A stretch of 64,000 bases of DNA from Bacteroidia bacterium. Lineage in GTDB: Bacteria > Bacteroidota > Bacteroidia > Flavobacteriales > Schleiferiaceae. Where the stretch lies: contig JAUHWL010000014.1 of the NCBI GenBank assembly GCA_030424545.1, positions 1 through 64,000 on the forward strand, written 5' to 3'. Shown here piece by piece: positions 3,870-64,000 of the stretch (positions are counted from its first letter, which is position 1; the number at the start of each line of letters is the position of its first letter). A program made the translations under genes and the position numbers. The notes beneath the pieces were generated by a model. It worked only from the letters and a program-made list of their open reading frames with translations. It was not told the DNA's origin and ran no database searches.

Positions 3870-4703
3870 TTGGTATTTGTAAAAAATTTTAGCGTTTTAA
3901 AATTTATTGTACTTGGTGTAGTCTTCTTGCTTGCCATTTTTTCAGAGGCCAAAAACCCTGTGGTTGCAAAGCAAACTCAGGCCAACACAGACATTATTTA
4001 TTTTATTCCTGGTGCCCTTTACAGCGAAAACAAGCCGCAAATTTGGTCACGCTTCGGTAAGTTTAACACACACTTTATTGCCAAAGCAAAACAAATTTAT
4101 GGCGACAATTTTGTTGTTGTGAGAGGTGGCGTCCCAAAAATTCCGTTGTATCCGCTTCGGGTTATATGGAGTTCTAGATGGGCTGTTTTACACGGTTATG
4201 AAACCATAGATACAAATGCTTACAACAACGTAAAAAGGGTTATAGAAGAAATTTCAACTCATTATCAGCGTTTTGGCAAGGGAAAAAAAATTCACATAAT
4301 AGGCTCTAGCTATGGTAGTGTTTTAGCCGCGCAAGCAAGCCTGACTTTATTAGAACAAAATGGTGAAATCAAACAAATAGAAGATCTTATATTAAGTGCT
4401 TCTATGATTCATGAAAAATCTGAGCTAGGACTACATCTAAAAAAACTACACCAAGAAAGATTAATTAAACACCTTACCTACGACAATGACTCTACCGACA
4501 ATGTTGTGGGTATTTCTGGACGTTGTAAAGCTGACGCCAAAATGGGGTTATCGCAATTGATCTTTGGCAATCAAGATAATCCCAGTGTTTTTTTATGGAA
4601 TAAACACCAACATGTATTTGGCGCAAACAACACCAAGCGTACGTACATCATTTTAGATTTATTGCACACCAATCAACATTTACAGGGGGTTGTAAAACAT
4701 TAA
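3870..4703 (+). CDS. Alpha/beta-hydrolase-like protein
   Basis: The protein has 277 residues from TTG 3870; no in-frame ATG is available upstream (the ATG at 3860 meets a stop after two codons). An N-terminal hydrophobic segment (about 10-26) could be a signal peptide or anchor. The centre has the nucleophile-elbow pattern [10 protein letters not shown] (G-x-S-x-G) after a predicted strand and before an alanine-rich helix, as in alpha/beta hydrolases. An Asp (LDLLH) and His residues near the C-terminus could complete a triad, but I cannot assign them. I do not recognise a named family. The stop codon overlaps that of the convergent lysS gene (4700-4703). Confidence 0.6.
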
Positions 4704-6421
4704 TTCATCCAAGCCTCAACCTCATCTAGCTGTAAAGCAGGAATGTCCAGTTTGTTTTTCTTTCTAAAGCCATTTAGTTTTTGATGTACGGCTGTAGGTT
4801 TTGCTTCGCGAAGCTGCGCTACGGTGCCAAATCCTGCGGCAATAACATGTTCTGCCCAATCTTGCGGAACGCCAATTTTTACAAAGTCGGCTGGCTTTGG
4901 TGCGGCCTCAAATTTTTCGGGGCGCATCTGCGGGAAGAAAAGTACTTCCTGAATGCTGCTTTGATTGGTCAGCATCATGGTTAAACGGTCTATACCAATG
5001 CCCAAACCTGAGGTTGGAGGCATGCCGTATTCTAGTGCGCGCAAGAAATCTTGGTCAATAAACATCGCTTCGTCATCGCCTTTTTCGCTCAAGCGCAATT
5101 GCTCTTCAAATCGCTCGCGTTGGTCAATGGGGTCGTTTAATTCGCTGTAGGCATTAGCCACTTCTTTTCCGTTGATGAACAACTCAAAGCGCTCTGTTAA
5201 TCTATCGTCATCGCGGTGTTTTTTACACAACGGACTCATCTCTACCGGGTAATCTGTAATAAACGTTGGTTGGATGTAATTATGCTCGCATTTCTCGCCA
5301 AAAATTTCATCAACCAATTTACCGTAGCCCATGGTTTCGTCCACTTCAAGTCCAAGGCTGCGTGCAATTTCGCGGGTTTCGTCTTCGCCTTTGCCCAACA
5401 AATTGTGGCCAGTGTGTTCTTCAATTGCTTTTAAAATCGGCACGCGCGCATACGGTGCGGCAAAGTCAATTTCGTTTTCGCCCACCATCGTTTTGGTTTG
5501 ACCTTTTACTTGGTTAGCCACACGCTCTAGCATGTTTTCTACAAAGCGCATCATCCAGTTGTAATCTTTGTAGGCCACGTAAATTTCCATTACCGTAAAC
5601 TCGGGGTTGTGGGTGCGGTCCATGCCTTCGTTGCGGAAGTCTTTGGCAAATTCATACACGCCTTCAAATCCGCCAACAATTAGGCGTTTTAGGTAAAGTT
5701 CGTTTGCAACGCGCAAGTACAATGGCATATCTAATGCGTTGTGATGCGTCATAAACGGGCGGGCAGCAGCACCACCAGCAATAGGTTGCAAAATGGGGGT
5801 TTCTACTTCTAAGTAACCGGCTTCATCAAAAATGCTGCGCATGGTATTTATGATGCGCGTACGCTTGATGAAGGTATCTTTTACGTGATCATTAACCACC
5901 AAATCTACATAGCGTTGGCGGTAGCGCAATTCGGGATCAGAAAATGCATCGTGCACTTTACCACTATCATCTGTTTTTACAACAGGCAAGGGGCGCAGGG
6001 CTTTGCTTAAAAAAGTAAGCTCTTTTACGTTTACAGAAATTTCGCCTGTTTGGGTGCGAAAAACTTTTCCTTTAAGCCCAATAAAATCGCCAATATCTAG
6101 GAGTTTTTTAAACAAGCCGTTGTATAGCGTTTTGTCTTCGCCTGGGCAAAGTTCATCGCGGTTTACATAAATCTGAATTTTACCATGCGGATCGGCCAAA
6201 ACGCCAAAACTGGCCTTGCCCATAATGCGCTTGGTCATTAATCGTCCGGCCAAACAAACCTCAGCAAACGCCTCGGGGTTGTCATCAAAGTTGGTATTAA
6301 TTTGGGTGCTTTTGTGTGTTACCGGAAATTCGGCAGCCGGAAAAGGCTCAACTCCCATGGCACGCAAGCCTTTTAATGCATCGCGTCTTACTATTTCTTG
6401 TTCTGACAAAACTCTGGCCAT
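4700..6421 (-). CDS. lysS: Lysyl-tRNA synthetase, class II
   Basis: LysRS charges tRNA-Lys with lysine in the cytoplasm. The 573 residues show an N-terminal OB-fold anticodon-binding domain (about 50-150), class II motif 1 near the RYRQRYVDL segment, motif 2 with [15 protein letters not shown], and motif 3 [12 protein letters not shown]-like near residue 485. The [16 protein letters not shown] segment is typical of bacterial LysS. After the catalytic core (about residue 503) there is an extra tail of roughly 70 residues, lysine- and alanine-rich and probably helical, that the E. coli enzyme lacks and that I recall in Bacteroidota LysRS. The gene has its own -7 box upstream. The 3' end overlaps the convergent hydrolase-like gene by 4 bases. 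Confidence 0.97.
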
Positions 6422-6442
6422 TTCAATAAAATTTTAGGGCGG

Positions 6443-6450
6443 CAAAGATA
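6443..6450 (-). promoter_or_regulatory. -7 box for lysS
   Basis: The minus strand reads TATCTTTG followed by CCGCCCT, an exact TAnnTTTG element with the GC-rich downstream tract seen at other housekeeping promoters in this window. It lies 22 bases from the lysS ATG. Confidence 0.55.
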
Positions 6451-6650
6451 GTTTTTAAGTGGCCTTTTACAATGAGAATTAACCAAGACAAGCTATTAGA
6501 AAGCAAACTCTTCATTCAGATTCATCAGCTATTACTAATTTTTAAGAATGAATAATCAAAAGCAACAATTCCGTTTATGATTTTAAAAATGTAAAGATTC
6601 AATTCACCAACTTTACTCATATTTGTGCTCCAACAAAATCACCCCAAAAA

Positions 6651-27234: not shown

Positions 27235-27277
27235 AAAAAAATGCCCCGTAGTGTAAATACACTACGGGGCATTTTTA
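27235..27277. terminator. Bidirectional terminator between convergent genes
   Basis: A near-perfect 15-bp stem, ATGCCCCGTAGTGTA (27241-27255) with TACACTACGGGGCAT (27258-27272), is flanked by an A run on the left and a T run on the right. It can end both the bestrophin operon and the DUF4399 gene. Confidence 0.92.
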
Positions 27278-43894: not shown

Positions 43895-43935
43895 ATTAGG
43901 GCATCTTGAACAATACAAGATGCCCTAATTTGTTT
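43895..43935 (+). terminator. Terminator of the efflux operon
   Basis: Arms ATTAGGGCATCTTG (43895-43908) and CAAGATGCCCTAAT (43916-43929) form a perfect 14-bp stem with a 7-base loop and a following T run. Confidence 0.92.
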
Positions 43936-56152: not shown

Positions 56153-57850
56153 TTAAAAATCAGCTTTTGCTGTAAGGCGCATTTTATGTCCTGTAACGGG
56201 ATGTTCAAATTGTAAATATTCTGCATGCAAAAACATTCGTTCTGCTTTTTTGCCATAAAGCGCATCGCCAACAATGGCCGCATTTAGCCCCAATGGGTGG
56301 GCCATGTGCATGCGCAGTTGATGCGTGCGACCCGTATGCGGAAACAGGTTTATTCGCGTTTTTCCGTTTGCTTTTTCAATTACCTCGTAGCGTGTAACGG
56401 CAAGTTTGCCGTGCTCAAAACAAACAAGTTGGCTTGGGCGGTTGTCCAAATCTACACGAAGTGGCAATTTTATAATTCCCGAATCTTGTTCAATTTCCGA
56501 CTCTAAAAGCGCCACATATCGCTTTTTAATGGTACGATTTGTAAACTGAGCCTGCAGGTTTTTATGCACCTCCAACGATTTTGCAATAAGCAACAATCCC
56601 GAAGTTGCCATATCTAACCGATGCACCACCAACGGCCCTGTAGCCTCGGTATACTTGGCTTTCATGCGCGTGGCTACAGAATCTTTAATCTCCTTTCCGG
56701 GCACCGATAGCAAACCTTCCGGTTTATTAACCGCCAACATATACTCGTCTTCGTATACGATTTTTAGTTTTTTGGTTTGCGCATTATCCATCAACATTGG
56801 GTTTGGATCTAAGTCCATTCCGCCCAACATGTGCGCTAATATTGGCTCACATTTATTTTTACAAGCGGGATAAAAATGGCCGTGCTTACGTATGGTTGTT
56901 GTTGGCGAAACGCCCCACCAAAACTCCGCCATAGCAATGGGCTTCATGTTGTTTTTAAATGCAAAATGCAACAGCTTTGGGGCGGCACAATCTCCGGCTC
57001 CCGCGGGAGGTTGAATGATGCTTCGCTCATTAAAAATAGATTCTAAAGATTTTTTCTCGCCCGCACTATTTAAGAATTGATACGAATTAAACAACTTTTT
57101 TTGCAGCGTTGCCGAATGTGCCGCACGTTTTTCAACTTGCTTTTTAAGTTGATTTTTAAATGCATAAAACACATCTTTTTTGGCGTTGATTTCCGCTTCG
57201 CATCGCGCAACGAGCAATTTTAATTCGTGCTGATAATGGTAACTTTCTTTAACCAAGCTATCTTTAAGCAGCGCAAAACCATCTGCCGAAATCTTGTTTT
57301 CTAGCGCTGTACGCAAACGTTGGCGCTGCATTTTGCGTTGGCGCATAAACGCTCTAAAACTTTCAATTTCTGCAGCGCATTGTTGTTTTGTGTTTTCGTA
57401 TTCGCTTTGTGCTGCGGTCATTTCTACCGATGTTTCTAACGCGCGTATTTCATCGCCCAGCACATTTATTTCGCGCATGCCGCGATTAAAAAAATTGTCG
57501 CCTTCGGGCAAATTGTTGATGGAAGGCACAAAGTTTTTTGGCCAAGGCGTATCGTTTAACTTTCCTGAAAACGCACGCAAATAACCTATTTCTCCACTCT
57601 GATTCTGCACCACCAAAACGCCAAACATTTTGCCTCCCTCGGCCACTTTATTGTTCGGATCGAAACCAAAATTATGCTGCCAATGGGTTTGTTCTTTAAT
57701 GAATGCTTGTAACTCGTTTGCGGCTATAATGCACAACGGATACGGCTCGTAATAAAACGGGAACGTGAATTTATCTGGCAGCGGAATGTGCCCTATTTCA
57801 GTTTTAAAGGGTGTAAATATCTCTTGTAATTCGCTTCTAACATCACCCAT
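56153..57850 (-). CDS. RluA-family pseudouridine synthase with long N-terminal region
   Basis: The catalytic domain occupies about residues 370-565 and has the RluA motif HRLDMATSG with catalytic Asp about 413, the second-motif region RTHQLRMHMAHPLGLN, and a strand KRYVALLE. Such enzymes isomerise uridine to pseudouridine in tRNA or 23S rRNA. The first 365 residues are unusual: a helical, partly coiled-coil region (about 105-250) rich in Lys, Glu and Gln, with a GDC-rich stretch before the catalytic part. The domain resembles the longer RluA-like enzymes of some Gammaproteobacteria and Bacteroidota. The start is ATG 57850. Confidence 0.88.
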   Translation of the reverse strand: MGDVRSELQEIFTPFKTEIGHIPLPDKFTFPFYYEPYPLCIIAANELQAFIKEQTHWQHNFGFDPNNKVAEGGKMFGVLVVQNQSGEIGYLRAFSGKLNDTPWPKNFVPSINNLPEGDNFFNRGMREINVLGDEIRALETSVEMTAAQSEYENTKQQCAAEIESFRAFMRQRKMQRQRLRTALENKISADGFALLKDSLVKESYHYQHELKLLVARCEAEINAKKDVFYAFKNQLKKQVEKRAAHSATLQKKLFNSYQFLNSAGEKKSLESIFNERSIIQPPAGAGDCAAPKLLHFAFKNNMKPIAMAEFWWGVSPTTTIRKHGHFYPACKNKCEPILAHMLGGMDLDPNPMLMDNAQTKKLKIVYEDEYMLAVNKPEGLLSVPGKEIKDSVATRMKAKYTEATGPLVVHRLDMATSGLLLIAKSLEVHKNLQAQFTNRTIKKRYVALLESEIEQDSGIIKLPLRVDLDNRPSQLVCFEHGKLAVTRYEVIEKANGKTRINLFPHTGRTHQLRMHMAHPLGLNAAIVGDALYGKKAERMFLHAEYLQFEHPVTGHKMRLTAKADF

Positions 57851-57901
57851 TTAAAACCTATTTGCCTTTTTAAAATTGTTGCGAAAATAGTACGTTGGGG
57901 G

Positions 57902-59194
57902 TTATGCTTTCTCCTTGATGGATTTTCGTTTGTAAATCATTTCGGCAAGAAAGCAGAAACCAAAAATTCCCAGCGCAATTAAAATGCCTGATAAATTATC
58001 TTGAGCCTGCTGTACCACCAAAATTGCAAAGGCGGCAAAACACAAAATTGCGCCCAAAAGCGACACGATTTTTTTTGCTTTTATAACGGTTGCTTTTTTA
58101 TACGCCACCACATTTACCATCCCAAATATGAGTAAGAATCCTACGCTACCCGAAGTAGAAATACTTTCTAAATCTACCGCGTTGGCGAGGATAAGCGCCA
58201 TAACAGCAATGATGGCCAGCCCAATGGGTTTGCCCCAAAATTGGTGCGTGAAAGAAGGTGGAAGTTCATTGTCTTCGGCCACTTCGTAGTTTACACGACT
58301 GCCTCCTAAAAGCGTGGCGTTAATGGCCGAGAAGGTAGAAATCATAGCGGCCACAGCAATAATGGTAAAACCTACTTGCCCAAATTTGGGTTTGGCAGCT
58401 TCGGCCAGGGCATAATCTTGGGCGCTGGCAATGTCTGCAAAAGCCAGCGATCCCACGGTTACCACGGCAATGGCGAGGTAAAGTAAAATCACAAATACCA
58501 CAGAAATGTAATAGGCTTTCGGAATGTTTTTGTTAGGATTTTTAATGTCGGGTGCCGAGTTGGCGATGAGCTCAAAACCTTCGTAGGCCACAAAAATAAC
58601 CATGCCGGCCGCCACCAATTGCAGCCCACTTTCCCAGTTTTCTGGGTTGAGCTGCTCAAAATTTACGTTGGATGACAATCCCCAAAAACCCGCCCCCACA
58701 AAGGCCAAAAGAATTAAAAGTTTAATGACCACCGCGGCAGATTCTACCTCGCCCACAATTTTTATACTGTAATAATTTATGGCAGTAGAAAACACCAAAA
58801 TGGCCGAAATAAAAATGTGGGTGTCTATATTTTCATTCCCCGTTAGGGAAAATAAACTGGCGGCATAACTGCCAAATGCGCTTGCATACAGCGCCAGCAT
58901 GATGATGTAACTCACCCACATCATATTGTTGAGGCCACCACTAAAAACGCTCCGCCCAAAACCTTCGTTGATGAAACGCACGGTGCCGCCTTCATCAGGA
59001 AAAGCCACCGAAAGTTTGGCGTACGAATAGGCGGTGAGCAGTGCAATAACGCCCGCAACCAAAAAAGAAATGGGTACTCCGCCTTTTGCCAAACTTACCG
59101 AAAGGCCTAGCACGGCAAAGATGCCGCCTCCCACCATGCCACCAATGCCAATAGAAATAGCGTTGCTTAAACTTATTTTAGAATCGTTACCCAT
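57902..59194 (-). CDS. APC-superfamily amino acid permease
   Basis: The 430-residue protein has about 12 transmembrane helices. The N-terminal GIGGMVGGGIFAVLGLSVSLA has the GxGxGIF glycine motif of APC permeases (substrate-binding TM1), and TM6-like FVAYEGFELIANSAPDIKNPNKNIPKA carries the conserved turn. It probably imports an amino acid; the substrate cannot be inferred. It is upstream of the RluA-type gene with 51 bases between. Confidence 0.87.
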   Translation of the reverse strand: MGNDSKISLSNAISIGIGGMVGGGIFAVLGLSVSLAKGGVPISFLVAGVIALLTAYSYAKLSVAFPDEGGTVRFINEGFGRSVFSGGLNNMMWVSYIIMLALYASAFGSYAASLFSLTGNENIDTHIFISAILVFSTAINYYSIKIVGEVESAAVVIKLLILLAFVGAGFWGLSSNVNFEQLNPENWESGLQLVAAGMVIFVAYEGFELIANSAPDIKNPNKNIPKAYYISVVFVILLYLAIAVVTVGSLAFADIASAQDYALAEAAKPKFGQVGFTIIAVAAMISTFSAINATLLGGSRVNYEVAEDNELPPSFTHQFWGKPIGLAIIAVMALILANAVDLESISTSGSVGFLLIFGMVNVVAYKKATVIKAKKIVSLLGAILCFAAFAILVVQQAQDNLSGILIALGIFGFCFLAEMIYKRKSIKEKA

Positions 59195-59210
59195 GGGTTT
59201 CTGTTTGTGC

Positions 59211-59218
59211 CAAAACTA
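59211..59218 (-). promoter_or_regulatory. -7 box for the APC permease gene
   Basis: The minus strand reads TAGTTTTG, an exact TAnnTTTG element, 16 bases before the ATG at 59194. Confidence 0.5.
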
Positions 59219-59293
59219 AAAAGTTTGGGTAAAAAAGAAAGTTGCTCAATCAGATCATCATTTTTATAGACTAATGACCCGGTTTCACTTCAA

Positions 59294-61489
59294 TCATAAA
59301 TTGGTAAAAGCGATTTTACCCGAAGCAGCTAGTTTCAGCATTTTATCGCTTAAAGAATATAACCACTGCAATTGTTCCCAAATCAAATGTGCTTCTTGAA
59401 ACTCAATAGCTTTGTCCTTGTTTTGAAAAGACTTTTTCTGATTTTTTAAAAAATTTAATGTCGGCACTTGTTTTGCAAATAGAGCATCGTTTTTTAGCGT
59501 TGATTTTATTTGGGAGCGTTTACCTCGTAAACTTTGAAGCACTGCCTCCAGATTTTGCTCTATCAATTTTGTTGCAACTTTAAATTGCTTTGTAGCCTTG
59601 CTGGTTTCATGGTGCTGGATAAATGTACTTAGTGAAGCCAATGAAGCTAAAAACGTGTGATTTAATACAACCAATTCATAAATAATATCGGCACCTTTTT
59701 GTTGGGCCTTGGGCTCTTGCGCCATGCGCTGAAAGGCCGAGTTTAGATTTGATGTTTCTAAAAATGCTTCTTTACGCGCAACATTGTATGCCGTTGGCAC
59801 TTGGCCTTTCTCCTTGTAAAACTCAATAATTTGATGAAAAAAGTCTCTGTTAACCTCTACACTTTTCTCTATGCTCTCTCTTATTTCTACTGCCTCCCAA
59901 GTAGGCCACAGCCACAACATGGCCAAATAAGACAAACTCGCACCCACAAACGTATCTAAAACACGGAATTTTATGACGGTTAAAATATCGGGGCTAAGCA
60001 TCGCATAGATAAAAATTACACTTAGCGTAATAAAAGTGGCCGATGCCCGAGAGTTTTTTTGAATTAATGCAAATGCTATTACCAAAGAAGCTACGCCTAA
60101 AGCCCCAAAAACATATAAGTCTTGTATGAGAAAAACCATACCGTAGGCAATTACACCTCCGATTAGTGTACCAATAATACGGTCTTTGGCTCTGCTTTTT
60201 GTTAGGCCATAGCTGGGCCTCATGATAACAATTATGGTTAGTAAAATCCAGTAGGGGTTTTGTATTGGGAAGATAGAACCTAATGTATAACCCACCATAA
60301 CCGCAACTGCTAGCCGCAAAGAGTGCCTAAAAATGGTAGACTTAAAACTAAAATTCCTAACTAAAAGATTGGGATCAAAATCTTGCGCTGCAATAAAGTC
60401 TTTGGCAACATTTCTATCAATAAAATCAATTTCCATTGCCCCTGTGTCACCCAATAGGAGCTTTATTCTCTTTAGCTTTTTGAATTGCTTTTCTTGATAT
60501 TCAAACAAATTCTGGAGCATAAGAAAGTCTTCATAATCAAGTGCTTTTCGTTTTGAGGCGATTTCAAGGCTCACTTTTTCAAAACATTCTTGTAAAGCAT
60601 CATTATTGGGTAGGTTTTTACGGCTGTTACCTGCCTCTGAAATTTGGCGCAACTGAAGCGCCATTTTAAAAATAAGATCCTGAAATAAATTAATGTATTG
60701 AGGATGATCGTTGAAGAGCACGTCCATTCGGTTATAATTTACCGGGTTGGCCAATGCCGTTTCTAACATTTCTACCAGTTGCACAAAAACCAACAAGCGC
60801 TTATCTTGATAATTAGACCAACCTGAGGTCTTTCTTGAAAGAATGAGAATTTCCCTTAAGGTCTCGTGGTTTTCTGTTAGATCGCTTTGTAGTTTGAGTA
60901 ATTTGGACTGTAATTTTTCACGATTTTGATGAGGGCCAATTAATTTCCTTCGTGTATCTAAAAACTCTGCGGTTAACAAATATGTTTCAGATAGCAGCTC
61001 TTCGGTCTCTGCCTTTGGGTTGATGAGATACCAAATCTTAGCTAAAGAAAAATACCAAAGGCCGCCTGCTCCTACCAACAATGCGTACTGATAAATTTCT
61101 AGTTCTTCAGAATCGTGGGCAAAACTCAATACTAAAGCCAAAAGACCAGAAAAGCTAATAAGCGAAGCCCGAAACCCATAGACAGATATATACGAAATAC
61201 TAAAGCAAAGAATACCTAAAATGGGAAGAGAAAGCCACGTTTGGAAATGAAGATACCCGCCTATAAAACTAACCACCATGACCAATGCCGCAGATATAAG
61301 GATACCTATTTTTTTATGTTGAAAACTACCACTTACATCGCTAGGCGAACTCCAAAAGGCACCAAAACAAAGAGCCAAACCAATTTCAAAATGCCCGAAA
61401 TGCAAGCCCAATATTATGGGCAGCGTTACACCAATACCAACAAGAACAGCTCTTGAAAAGCTTGTACTTTTCAAGAGCTGTTTAAGCAT
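59294..61489 (-). CDS. FUSC-family inner-membrane protein (YccS/YhfK-like)
   Basis: The protein has 731 residues from ATG 61489; TTG 61528 would add 13 unremarkable residues. Two blocks of membrane helices (about 10-150 and 385-510) surround a roughly 230-residue soluble helical region, and a second soluble region makes up the C-terminus (about 540-731). The second block carries FUSC-type motifs such as NPYWILLTIIVIMRPSYGLTKSRAKDRIIGTLIGG. The family includes YccS and AaeB-like aromatic-acid exporters; the exact substrate is unknown. Codons 2-14 form an exceptionally strong hairpin on the mRNA (61445-61482), discussed separately. Confidence 0.87.
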   Translation of the reverse strand: MLKQLLKSTSFSRAVLVGIGVTLPIILGLHFGHFEIGLALCFGAFWSSPSDVSGSFQHKKIGILISAALVMVVSFIGGYLHFQTWLSLPILGILCFSISYISVYGFRASLISFSGLLALVLSFAHDSEELEIYQYALLVGAGGLWYFSLAKIWYLINPKAETEELLSETYLLTAEFLDTRRKLIGPHQNREKLQSKLLKLQSDLTENHETLREILILSRKTSGWSNYQDKRLLVFVQLVEMLETALANPVNYNRMDVLFNDHPQYINLFQDLIFKMALQLRQISEAGNSRKNLPNNDALQECFEKVSLEIASKRKALDYEDFLMLQNLFEYQEKQFKKLKRIKLLLGDTGAMEIDFIDRNVAKDFIAAQDFDPNLLVRNFSFKSTIFRHSLRLAVAVMVGYTLGSIFPIQNPYWILLTIIVIMRPSYGLTKSRAKDRIIGTLIGGVIAYGMVFLIQDLYVFGALGVASLVIAFALIQKNSRASATFITLSVIFIYAMLSPDILTVIKFRVLDTFVGASLSYLAMLWLWPTWEAVEIRESIEKSVEVNRDFFHQIIEFYKEKGQVPTAYNVARKEAFLETSNLNSAFQRMAQEPKAQQKGADIIYELVVLNHTFLASLASLSTFIQHHETSKATKQFKVATKLIEQNLEAVLQSLRGKRSQIKSTLKNDALFAKQVPTLNFLKNQKKSFQNKDKAIEFQEAHLIWEQLQWLYSLSDKMLKLAASGKIAFTNL
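61445..61482 (-). promoter_or_regulatory. 16-bp perfect hairpin over the first codons of the FUSC gene
   Basis: Arms AACAGCTCTTGAAAAG (61445-61460) and CTTTTCAAGAGCTGTT (61467-61482) are exact reverse complements with a 6-base loop. They lie entirely inside the coding sequence, 6 to 44 bases after the A of the ATG, so the mRNA start would be folded away unless opened. No T run follows, so it is not a simple terminator. It may limit translation or bind a regulator; neither has been shown. Confidence 0.65.
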
Positions 61490-61605
61490 CTTATAATTAT
61501 TTGAAATAAGGGGCGATACAGTATTCAAAACAATTGAGTATTGCTACAAGGTAAAGGTTTATTGAAATACCGTTTCTATTTTTGAAAATTAAAACGAGCA
61601 TTTGC

Positions 61606-61656
61606 TAAACCAAAATCAACCTCTTTGGTTTACCTCCAAACCGTTCTCAACGGTTT
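61606..61656 (-). terminator. Two consecutive hairpins after the USP gene
   Basis: AAACCGTT/AACGGTTT (61638-61645, 61649-61656; 3-base loop) overlaps the stop codon of the USP gene, and TAAACCAAA/TTTGGTTTA (61606-61614, 61624-61632; 9-base loop) follows it on the minus strand. They separate USP from the FUSC gene. Neither is followed by a strong T run, so termination would be partial. Confidence 0.45.
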
Positions 61657-62783
61657 ATTTGTTGGCGTACCTCTTGTTCAATCTTCATGTTTTCTATTCG
61701 CTCAAGAATCCTGTTGGCCATTGAGTTGTGTTTTATAGCATTTTCCGAGTCGCCAACCTTTTGGTAAGCCTTTGCAATGCCCATTAATGCCGGTACGTGC
61801 ATGATATTGAGATTGAGGCATACTTTGTATTGTTGGATAGATTCCTCATAAAATCCTTTACTAAAAAGCTTCTGCGCTAGGTCATAATGGTTCTCAATGT
61901 CTTGGATTTTAGACTCCAATTCAAAGGCAACCACATCTTCATTTTTTACCGTAATAAAAGAGCAGGGAACTTCTCTAACCACTTTTTCGGTAACGCTACC
62001 CATCAATATTTTACTAATTCCAGACTTTCCGGTGGTGCCCATTATCAGCAAATCTGCGTTTTCCTTTTTAATCAATTTCAGAATTTCTTCAGAAGGTTTT
62101 CCACCCAGAATATGCTGATCATAATCTAAATCAATTAGATTAAAACCCTCCATATACTTTTTAAACTCCTGCCTGTACTCCTTTTGCCTTAGTTCGTTTA
62201 TTTCGGCCATATTAAATTCAATGCTATCATACCTAAAAGGCGGATATACACTGAGGACAGTTAATTTGGCACCAACCATGCGTGCGATGATAATGGCACT
62301 GTTTAATGCACGGCTAGATTCTTTAGAGAAATCTACCGGGCAAACTATATTTTTTAACGATAGTGTATCTCCGTTTTTTATAACAAATACAGGTTGGTTG
62401 CTTTTTCTAATCATTTTTTCCGCGGTACTTCCCAATTGAAAAGCATCGCCCGCCAACTTATTGCCAGAACCAATCATGATTAGGTTAGCTCCAATTTTTT
62501 CTGAGGTACGCACAATTTTATCGCAATGATTTCCGTGCTCTAAAATGGGAGGTCCGGCTTCAAGGCCTTCTTTAACAATGCGTTCATTTAACGCATTTAG
62601 TTTTGTATTTACCGTTTTTTCTAGCAGATCACTCACTTTTTTATTGTTGATATCATCTGGCAAAACATGAATGAGTGTTATTCTAGATTTAAACGTTTTT
62701 GCAAAACGAATTGAATTCTTCAAAACATTGTCTGAAGAATCCGTGAAGTCAACGGCAACTAATATGCTCTTAAGTAATTTCAT
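61647..62783 (-). CDS. Tandem universal stress protein with C-terminal TPR
   Basis: The 378-residue protein has two USP domains. The first (about 1-145) has the ATP-type motif GSGNKLAGDAFQLGST and ends PVFVIK. The second (about 146-282) has the canonical GTTGKSGISKILMGSVTEKVV and ends CSFITVK. The last 90 residues contain TPR-like helices (LAQKLFSKGFYEESIQQYKVCL, AKAYQKVGDSENAIKHNS). Double USPs usually bind ATP and respond to stress or starvation; the TPR suggests a protein partner. Dps lies 90 bases upstream in the same direction. Confidence 0.88.
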   Translation of the reverse strand: MKLLKSILVAVDFTDSSDNVLKNSIRFAKTFKSRITLIHVLPDDINNKKVSDLLEKTVNTKLNALNERIVKEGLEAGPPILEHGNHCDKIVRTSEKIGANLIMIGSGNKLAGDAFQLGSTAEKMIRKSNQPVFVIKNGDTLSLKNIVCPVDFSKESSRALNSAIIIARMVGAKLTVLSVYPPFRYDSIEFNMAEINELRQKEYRQEFKKYMEGFNLIDLDYDQHILGGKPSEEILKLIKKENADLLIMGTTGKSGISKILMGSVTEKVVREVPCSFITVKNEDVVAFELESKIQDIENHYDLAQKLFSKGFYEESIQQYKVCLNLNIMHVPALMGIAKAYQKVGDSENAIKHNSMANRILERIENMKIEQEVRQQINR

Positions 62784-62873
62784 GATGTCTAAATTTATCT
62801 AATTCAACAATCTCGGTTTTCCCGAAAAAAAAACTCACAACCTACATTTTATGCCTTGTTAGATCTGAAATTA

Positions 62874-63341
62874 TTATTTCAAATATGAGTTAAGCATCCA
62901 AAGCGTTTTTTCGGTTTCAGAGATGTAATCACTCATCAAGCTCAAGGTACCTTCATCTTCTGCATCTGCTGCAAGCGATAGAATAAGACGCTCTTTTACG
63001 ATTAACGTGGAGAAGTTCTTAACGACAATTTCTACACATTTTTCTCCATCTGTAACACTTTTTGCTTCTTTAATTTCTGTAGCTTTTAGGTAGTCTGTAT
63101 ATGTATGCAATGGTTCACCTTCTAGCGTTAAGATACGTTCTGCTATTTCGTCAATTTTCACAAACGCATCGTTGTATAATTCTTCAAATTTTCCGTGCAA
63201 TTCAAAAAATTCTTTTCCTTTAATATTCCAATGGAATCCTCTTAAATTCTGATAGAATATTTCATAATCAGCTAATAAAACATTTAGTTCAACTACTAGT
63301 TTTTCAGCTTTTTCTCTTTCAATTCCAACTAAGTTTTTCAT
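62874..63341 (-). CDS. Dps-family ferritin-like protein
   Basis: Dps forms a 12-subunit shell that oxidises and stores iron and shields DNA during starvation and peroxide stress. The 155 residues give the four-helix bundle length and show the ferroxidase signature FHWNIKGKEFFELHGKFEELYNDAFVKIDEIAERI (His in FHWN, His and Asp/Glu later). A DGEKCVEIVVKNFS segment and a C-terminal helix SDYISETEKTLWMLNSYL follow. The upstream leader (63342-63503) is AT-rich with no exact -7 box that I can identify. Confidence 0.95.
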   Translation of the reverse strand: MKNLVGIEREKAEKLVVELNVLLADYEIFYQNLRGFHWNIKGKEFFELHGKFEELYNDAFVKIDEIAERILTLEGEPLHTYTDYLKATEIKEAKSVTDGEKCVEIVVKNFSTLIVKERLILSLAADAEDEGTLSLMSDYISETEKTLWMLNSYLK

Positions 63342-63503
63342 AACTTTTTTTGTTTTTATTTAATTATTAATATAGTTTCATTTCGCTTAAAAAAATGCTT
63401 ATTCTTTCCGCTGATAATACGAATTTTATTCTGTTTAACCGCCTTATTTTCGCACTATATTTAAGTTAGAATAAGGTGCAATGTCTTCATCATCGTCTTC
63501 GTT

Positions 63504-64000
63504 TTAAGTTTTATAATTTATATCAACTACCTCAAAAACTCTGCGTTCTTTGGCCAAGTTTAAGGTTGCCAATTCGCCAACAGTCTTGTTCATTAATATT
63601 CTAGCTATTGGCGAAATGAAGGAGATTTTTCCTTTCGATATATCCGCTTCATCAACACCCACAATTTGATAGCGTTGAAGCCTTTTACCCGCACCAACTT
63701 TAAGGGTTACTAAGGCCCCAAACCTTATTTCATTCTTGGGTTGTGTGCTCACGTCTATCTTTTTTGCTGAGGCAATGCGGCCGTTGAGCAAGCTTAGCTT
63801 AGCGTTAATAAAGTTTACAGCGATACGCTTTTCATTTTCGTTTGTTGTTTCGAGTTTGCCTATGCTTGCAATGAGTGCCTGTTTTTCTTCCAACAATAAA
63901 TTCAAGCCTGTTTGCGTAACATAATTTGTTACACCCTCTGGTAAATCTGCTCTGGGTGGTACAATGGGAATTTCTTCCTGATCTTCTTCTCTAACAAATC
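63504..64000 (-). CDS. GreA/GreB-family transcription factor (partial)
   Basis: The frame runs from the stop at 63504 to the right window edge without a start, so the N-terminus is cut off; about 165 residues are visible. The most upstream visible residues, with an EEIPIVPPRADLPEGV segment, precede NYVTQTGLNLLLEEKQALIASIGKLE, the beginning of the helical hairpin that enters the RNA polymerase channel. The C-terminal half has a small beta domain (VTLKVGAGKRLQRYQIVGVDEAD, ISPIARILMNKTVGE) characteristic of Gre factors. A shorter start at 63905 is only an internal TTG. Gre factors restart backtracked polymerase. Confidence 0.87.
   Translation of the reverse strand, partial: FVREEDQEEIPIVPPRADLPEGVTNYVTQTGLNLLLEEKQALIASIGKLETTNENEKRIAVNFINAKLSLLNGRIASAKKIDVSTQPKNEIRFGALVTLKVGAGKRLQRYQIVGVDEADISKGKISFISPIARILMNKTVGELATLNLAKERRVFEVVDINYKT

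Follow-up and report, generated by a model that had tools for sequence, protein, structure and literature searches.

A perfect hairpin early in the coding sequence of a FUSC/YccS-like transporter gene from a bacterium of the Schleiferiaceae and its partial presence in related genes

Why does a gene for a putative membrane transporter contain a perfect hairpin in its early coding region, and is this structure an element on which selection has acted or a by-product of the encoded protein? The hairpin was noticed in a window of 64,000 nucleotides (the whole stretch of DNA analysed here) from a genome assigned to the Schleiferiaceae. As described in the initial annotation, it consists of two arms, AACAGCTCTTGAAAAG and CTTTTCAAGAGCTGTT, which are exactly complementary at 16 of 16 positions and lie six nucleotides apart (61445-61482). 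The transporter gene is encoded on the minus strand, and the mRNA consequently reads from 61482 down to 61445. Inverted-repeat comparison and folding placed the 5' arm of the mRNA, CTTTTCAAGAGCTGTT, at 61467-61482 and the 3' arm, AACAGCTCTTGAAAAG, at 61445-61460 of this strand; in the 6-nt spacer between them (61461-61466, minus strand) a 4-nt loop closed by one extra pair is predicted. The mRNA strand is predicted to fold into this hairpin (z of -6.9 for the 161-nt region in comparison to dinucleotide shuffles), and the predicted folding energy of the 51-nt hairpin stretch alone is -25.1 kcal/mol.

The 16-bp stem exceeds what chance would provide. Among the 50 ORFs of the window (58.9 kb) this hairpin is the only perfect stem of more than 10 bp with a loop of 3-12 nt, and the longest perfect stem obtained over 60 synonymous-codon shuffles of the same ORFs comprised 13 bp. 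If the protein and the local codon usage were kept fixed, all 16 positions were paired (G·U allowed) in a fraction of 1.75e-5 of 400,000 draws. The window contains two further long perfect repeats, at 27237-27276 (its sequence was inspected) and at 43895-43929; both are located between ORFs and look like ordinary terminators. With up to three mismatches allowed, the hairpin was found a single time in the 3.38-Mb genome. A covariance model of the stretch, with 150 of 3964-6527 first-look candidates scored per genome, gave one strong match in each of six genomes, which was the transporter gene; the next-best matches were the same hairpin on the opposite strand (E 0.03), followed by matches with E 0.2 or worse. 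An interpretation as a repeat element was dropped, as the own genome has a single copy.

Read from a TTG start, the gene covers 59294..61528 on the minus strand and comprises 744 codons, whereas the reading started at an ATG covers 59294-61489. The ATG-started protein matched Pfam family PF12805 with 105.5 bits (cut-off 22.1), and the scores for PF13515 and PF04632 were also above the cut-off. By these domains the gene product is a predicted FUSC/YccS-like membrane transporter; the name of the YccS subfamily itself is not earned, because the NCBIfam model YCCS_YHFK scored 245.7 bits and thereby below its cut-off of 467.8 bits.

In the initial annotation, the in-frame ATG at 61487-61489 was taken as the start, and the hairpin was described as lying just after the start codon. 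This ATG is probably a misplaced start and the real one is probably the TTG at 61526-61528 (minus strand), for which reason the description is probably wrong in this point. The codon aligned to the ATG is an ATG in 0 of 33 relatives. In close relatives, the frame runs on upstream with similar residues as far as an in-frame TTG, and in the window five codons lie between the TTG and an in-frame stop codon upstream of it. The TTG column encodes Leu in 22 of 34 genes (own gene included), in all 22 of them by the codon TTG, and ranks second of 430 scored columns with regard to codon conservation. Some genes deviate from this pattern. An in-frame stop between the TTG column and the stem rules out a start at this column in three of the 34 genes (L027, L028 and L030), and L030 has a possible ATG start six codons upstream of the conserved block. 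The TTG sits one codon later in L048, L054 and L056, and L063 possesses an ATG one codon ahead of the column. In L023, L026, L027 and L057, the frame has no ATG, GTG or TTG from the preceding stop codon to the conserved block; in these four genes ATT or ATA might be used as start codon.

The analysis points to TTG as the corrected start, which is widely shared and follows a short leader. The sequence TANNTTTG, described as the -7 element of Bacteroidota promoters (PMC6847099, PMC9723704), occurs exactly in 19 of the 34 genes, with the start of the box 23-31 nt upstream of the TTG column, in comparison to 26 of 1576 control stretches inside genes. The window's own promoter-like box at the matching position is TACCTTGT (61553-61546, minus strand); it does not match TANNTTTG and fits TAnnTTGY, a box described for the alternative motif SM5 in Flavobacterium psychrophilum (PMC9723704). 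With this box at -12 to -5, the transcript is predicted to start near 61541 and to have a leader of about 13 nt, and the hairpin would lie approximately 60 nt from this transcript start.

Conservation of the stem was analysed in an alignment of 66 loci, 53 of which are gap-free over the stretch; the 13 gapped loci (L005, L006, L013, L020, L031, L036, L042, L046, L059, L061, L062, L064 and L065) were set aside. From the gap-free genes 34 were used, namely the own gene, 11 close relatives with 67-74% protein identity (set A) and 22 distant relatives with 52-64% (set B). Genes that duplicate the stretch of another one (L021 that of L019, L067 that of L012, L055 that of L016), L060 (55% identity, an exclusion that is hard to justify) and 15 genes with less than 52% identity were left out. 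None of the excluded loci inspected for the 12 inner pairs has the full set (L059, L061 and L062, 11 pairs; L064, 9; L060, 8; L065, 7). L013 has 13 of 16 positions paired (P 0.034) with no surplus stability (z 0.19). In the search for closer relatives, the genus returned the own genome alone, and the family of genome G1073 (79 genomes) gave no new match at E 1e-230.

In roughly half of the close relatives a shortened stem is retained, above the prediction from synonymous codons. The complete core of 12 inner pairs (G·U allowed) occurs in 6 of the 11 genes of set A, with 0.11 expected from codon usage, and 10 of the 11 exceed their own codon-usage expectation for pairing (shared ancestry ignored in both cases). 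In set B, the full 12-pair core was detected in 2 of 22 genes (0.40 expected) and 11 of 22 lie above their own expectation, shared ancestry again being ignored. The full core is absent from 5 of the 11 genes in set A and from 20 of the 22 in set B.

As a control for structure, 51-nt windows along the gene were folded and compared to synonymous permutations. In the 11 close relatives without the own gene, the hairpin window showed a mean z of -1.98 (sd of window means 0.47) and rank 2 of 362; rank 1 was occupied by a window overlapping the hairpin (mean z -2.13). In 42 control windows inside the gene, in which one of 12 sequences showed z ≤ -2.5, the other 11 had a mean of -0.34 (sd 0.44, minimum -1.28). 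The surplus structure of the hairpin is greater than in all 42 of these windows, which share its ancestry. In set B, the hairpin ranked first of 237 windows, although barely (-0.88; runner-up -0.86), which is a weak structure signal at most in the more distant relatives. By these comparisons, the stretch agrees with a conserved structured RNA element in so far as its structure goes beyond the synonymous expectation, which applies to the close set only.

Single codons point in the same direction. Gln is encoded by CAG in 10 of 11 cases in the close set including the own gene (35% usage), and CAG gives a G-C pair beyond the wobble pairs; Ser codon 25 is TCA in 23 of 32 genes (23% expected), which favours the stem. 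On the tree, the fully paired state requires 6 changes for nine genes in comparison to 8.2 with shuffled labels (22 of 500 as low), and it thereby appears mildly clustered, having been gained and lost.

Our tentative reading is that of a clade-limited mRNA hairpin in the early coding region, which was inherited and probably selected, became perfected in the own lineage and possibly acts on early elongation. The 12-pair core (G·U included) would be an inherited feature of the transporter gene in one clade of Bacteroidota genes, and it would have been expanded to 16 perfect pairs in the lineage of the window. An obstacle for early elongation seems to be the most economical role for the helix, which might act on translating ribosomes. 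According to the dimensions of the ribosome, the P site would be near codon 11-12 when a ribosome coming from the weak TTG start reaches the base of the helix; this point precedes a stretch that appears hydrophobic by eye. A pause at the helix might restrict further initiation or allow time for targeting to the membrane. Stable helices can, however, be unwound by ribosomes during elongation (PMC7829197), which counts against a pausing role.

A hairpin early in the coding region behind a non-AUG start is also known from eukaryotic mRNAs, in which downstream hairpins of the AUG_hairpin type are described to raise the recognition of weak or non-AUG start codons (PMC2001202). Unlike these, the hairpin described here is bacterial and its stem begins at +47, whereas higher pairing is reported there at coding positions 13-17. 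Flavobacterium johnsoniae belongs to the same phylum and is likewise described as having no Shine-Dalgarno sequences and a translation for which mRNA structure matters (PMC6847099); its structure-poor zone, however, extends from -20 to +20, and the present hairpin lies outside that zone. An early-coding hairpin in a FUSC gene of the Bacteroidota was not found in the titles and abstract openings among the literature matches listed, which leaves its absence unproven. If the helix is functional, the gene would offer a clean single-gene test of early coding structure versus translation in a phylum without Shine-Dalgarno pairing.

A role of the helix in holding the start region open was also considered and dropped, as shuffled hairpin codons had no consistent effect (mean z -0.24, 12 genes). 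In the own gene, the openness of the start region (0.64) is above the mean of its shuffles (0.53), yet 20% of the shuffles reach this value.

Possible, although doubtful, is an origin of the hairpin as a functionless by-product. In that case, a short inverted repeat would result from the conserved residues (F)LKS-x-x-FSR together with AT-rich codons, and a mutation by template switching or a small number of chance changes would have perfected it in the own lineage. Several pairs are indeed fixed by the protein or by the purine or pyrimidine in the third base. Only the own gene has Leu (CTC) where the other 33 of 34 genes have Phe, by which a U·G is replaced by a C-G pair, and with GTT as its Val codon it gains one or two pairs over most close relatives, which have Ile codons there. 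The perfect version could have arisen through selection for pairing as well as through template-directed mutation. The Leu codon found in the own gene only is the change that arm homogenisation would make, and template switching is reported to make the arms of repeats in coding DNA alike, amino acids being replaced in the process (PMC8604942), and to create or perfect stems (PMC8794818). The hairpin shares with the template-switch hairpins of these studies the perfect inverted repeat in coding DNA and the amino-acid difference that perfects pairing (PMC8794818, PMC8604942). Unlike in those cases (PMC8794818, PMC8604942), an arm homogenisation is not traceable to a branch here, and inversion of the spacer, the other mark of template switching, was not found (TACAAG vs. 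CACAAG in L011, one base apart). The maintenance of the core in relatives, which is far above codon usage and also above in-gene control windows of the same ancestry, argues against a by-product as well. If the hairpin is nevertheless a perfected by-product, it would caution that an intragenic hairpin, however striking and perfect, can be confined to one lineage, with a modest conserved part.

The pattern of substitutions speaks in favour of such a by-product. Following the proposal of the initial annotation, the relatives were inspected for compensating silent changes that keep the stem, and no covariation was found; double (compensatory) changes occur at chance level. This test has low power. 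The codon positions in the stem are paired 1:1, 2:3 and 3:2, third positions thereby facing second ones, and compensation therefore usually needs an amino-acid change. The arms of set A and the own gene did not pair better with their own partner than with swapped ones (12.83 vs. 12.90 pairs). A slight opposite tendency was observed in sets A and B without the own gene, where the mean energy was -7.71 for own and -7.09 for swapped arms (P 0.044).

Relatives that encode the same residues without the stem had been named beforehand as evidence against selection, and the sister genes L018 and L049 (support 100/99), which share 17 identical residues, provide a divided answer. L049 has lost the full stem and forms 10 of 12 inner pairs (-8.9 kcal/mol), while L018 keeps the core with 12 of 12 (-16.5 kcal/mol). 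The Phe at codon 18 is encoded by TTC in 20 of 33 genes (22% expected); it is also TTC in 13 of 22 genes with a Lys (AAR) partner, although the pair is thereby broken. Some of the codon conservation therefore has another cause. The codon conservation of the hairpin region ranks 2 of 566 in sets A and B together, 35-63 of 507 in set B alone and 186-215 of 700 in set A alone, and by this ranking it is unremarkable in the close set alone.

It is rather unlikely that codons 16-28, in combination with the conserved TTG start and the very short leader, contain a gene-specific RNA control element, in which the stable helix, reached by the first ribosome shortly after a weak start without Shine-Dalgarno sequence, would set output or membrane targeting, perhaps via a protein or a small RNA that reads the conserved arm CAGTTCTTGAAAAGC.

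Still less probable is a function at the DNA level, with the dyad TTGAAAA-N8-TTTTCAA as an operator, about 67 bp beyond the predicted start of the transcript, at which a putative dimeric regulator blocks or modulates transcription of the gene. The core of the dyad is exact in the window and in L003, L008, L009, L011 and L018; in the distant set, this holds for L024 and L056. The own genome and genome G027 each contain the exact pattern a single time, in both cases inside the transporter gene, and the conservation of the arm codons does not follow pairing in distant genes, which would be in accordance with an operator. Operators often recur near the regulator gene or in a regulon, but no second exact site was found in the own genome or in G027, and the pattern was found at one place outside this gene in G603 and nowhere in G1073. 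Furthermore, relatives have G·T in the outer pairs; this disrupts the symmetry of the DNA, while the RNA helix holds.

An occlusion of the start at ATG 61489 or an early end of transcription at an intragenic terminator is highly improbable: with the ATG as start the stem would begin at +8, and a loose scan flags a terminator-like site on the minus strand, but the ATG is missing from 33 of 33 aligned relatives, the TTG is common to most close ones, no U run follows the stem (tail CTTGTTGGTA on the minus and TAAGCATCTT on the plus strand), and no Rfam family reached its cut-off (601 bases on both strands; two matches with 15.1 and 13.7 bits at cut-offs of 70 and 100). Correspondingly, the assumption of the initial annotation that the stem would hinder translation initiation could not be upheld. 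Occlusion of the start is unlikely and not supported, because the first base of the shared TTG (61526-61528) is located 46 nt ahead of the stem. Counted from this TTG, the hairpin extends from +47 to +84 and is thereby beyond the initiation region; it would fall within about -20 to +20 only with the ATG at 61489 as start codon. The stem codons also had no consistent effect on the predicted accessibility of the start region. The statement that a T run is missing is correct in so far as none follows the stem at once, as an intrinsic terminator would have it; the tail CTTGTTGGTA on the minus strand is, however, sufficiently rich in T to be flagged by the loose terminator scan.

Three relatives with 71-74% identity of the FUSC protein (L008, L010 and L012) originate from MAGs named Saprospiraceae, Cyclobacteriaceae and Ignavibacteriae. 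In the tree, their neighbours are genes from Flavobacteriaceae and from the window's own family, for which either horizontal transfer or misbinning might be an explanation.

In the window, the transporter gene belongs to a run of genes on the minus strand (56153-63998), which encode a GreA/GreB-like factor, a Dps-like ferritin, a double universal stress protein, the FUSC transporter, an amino-acid permease and a pseudouridine synthase. Dps-like or GreA-like genes were also present, in varying order, in the fetched flanks of 6 of 13 relatives (L003, L008, L009, L011, L013 and L017). The Dps-like protein encoded in the window (62874-63341) is 93.5% identical to that of L003 (793-1257), while the FUSC proteins nearby share 72% identity.
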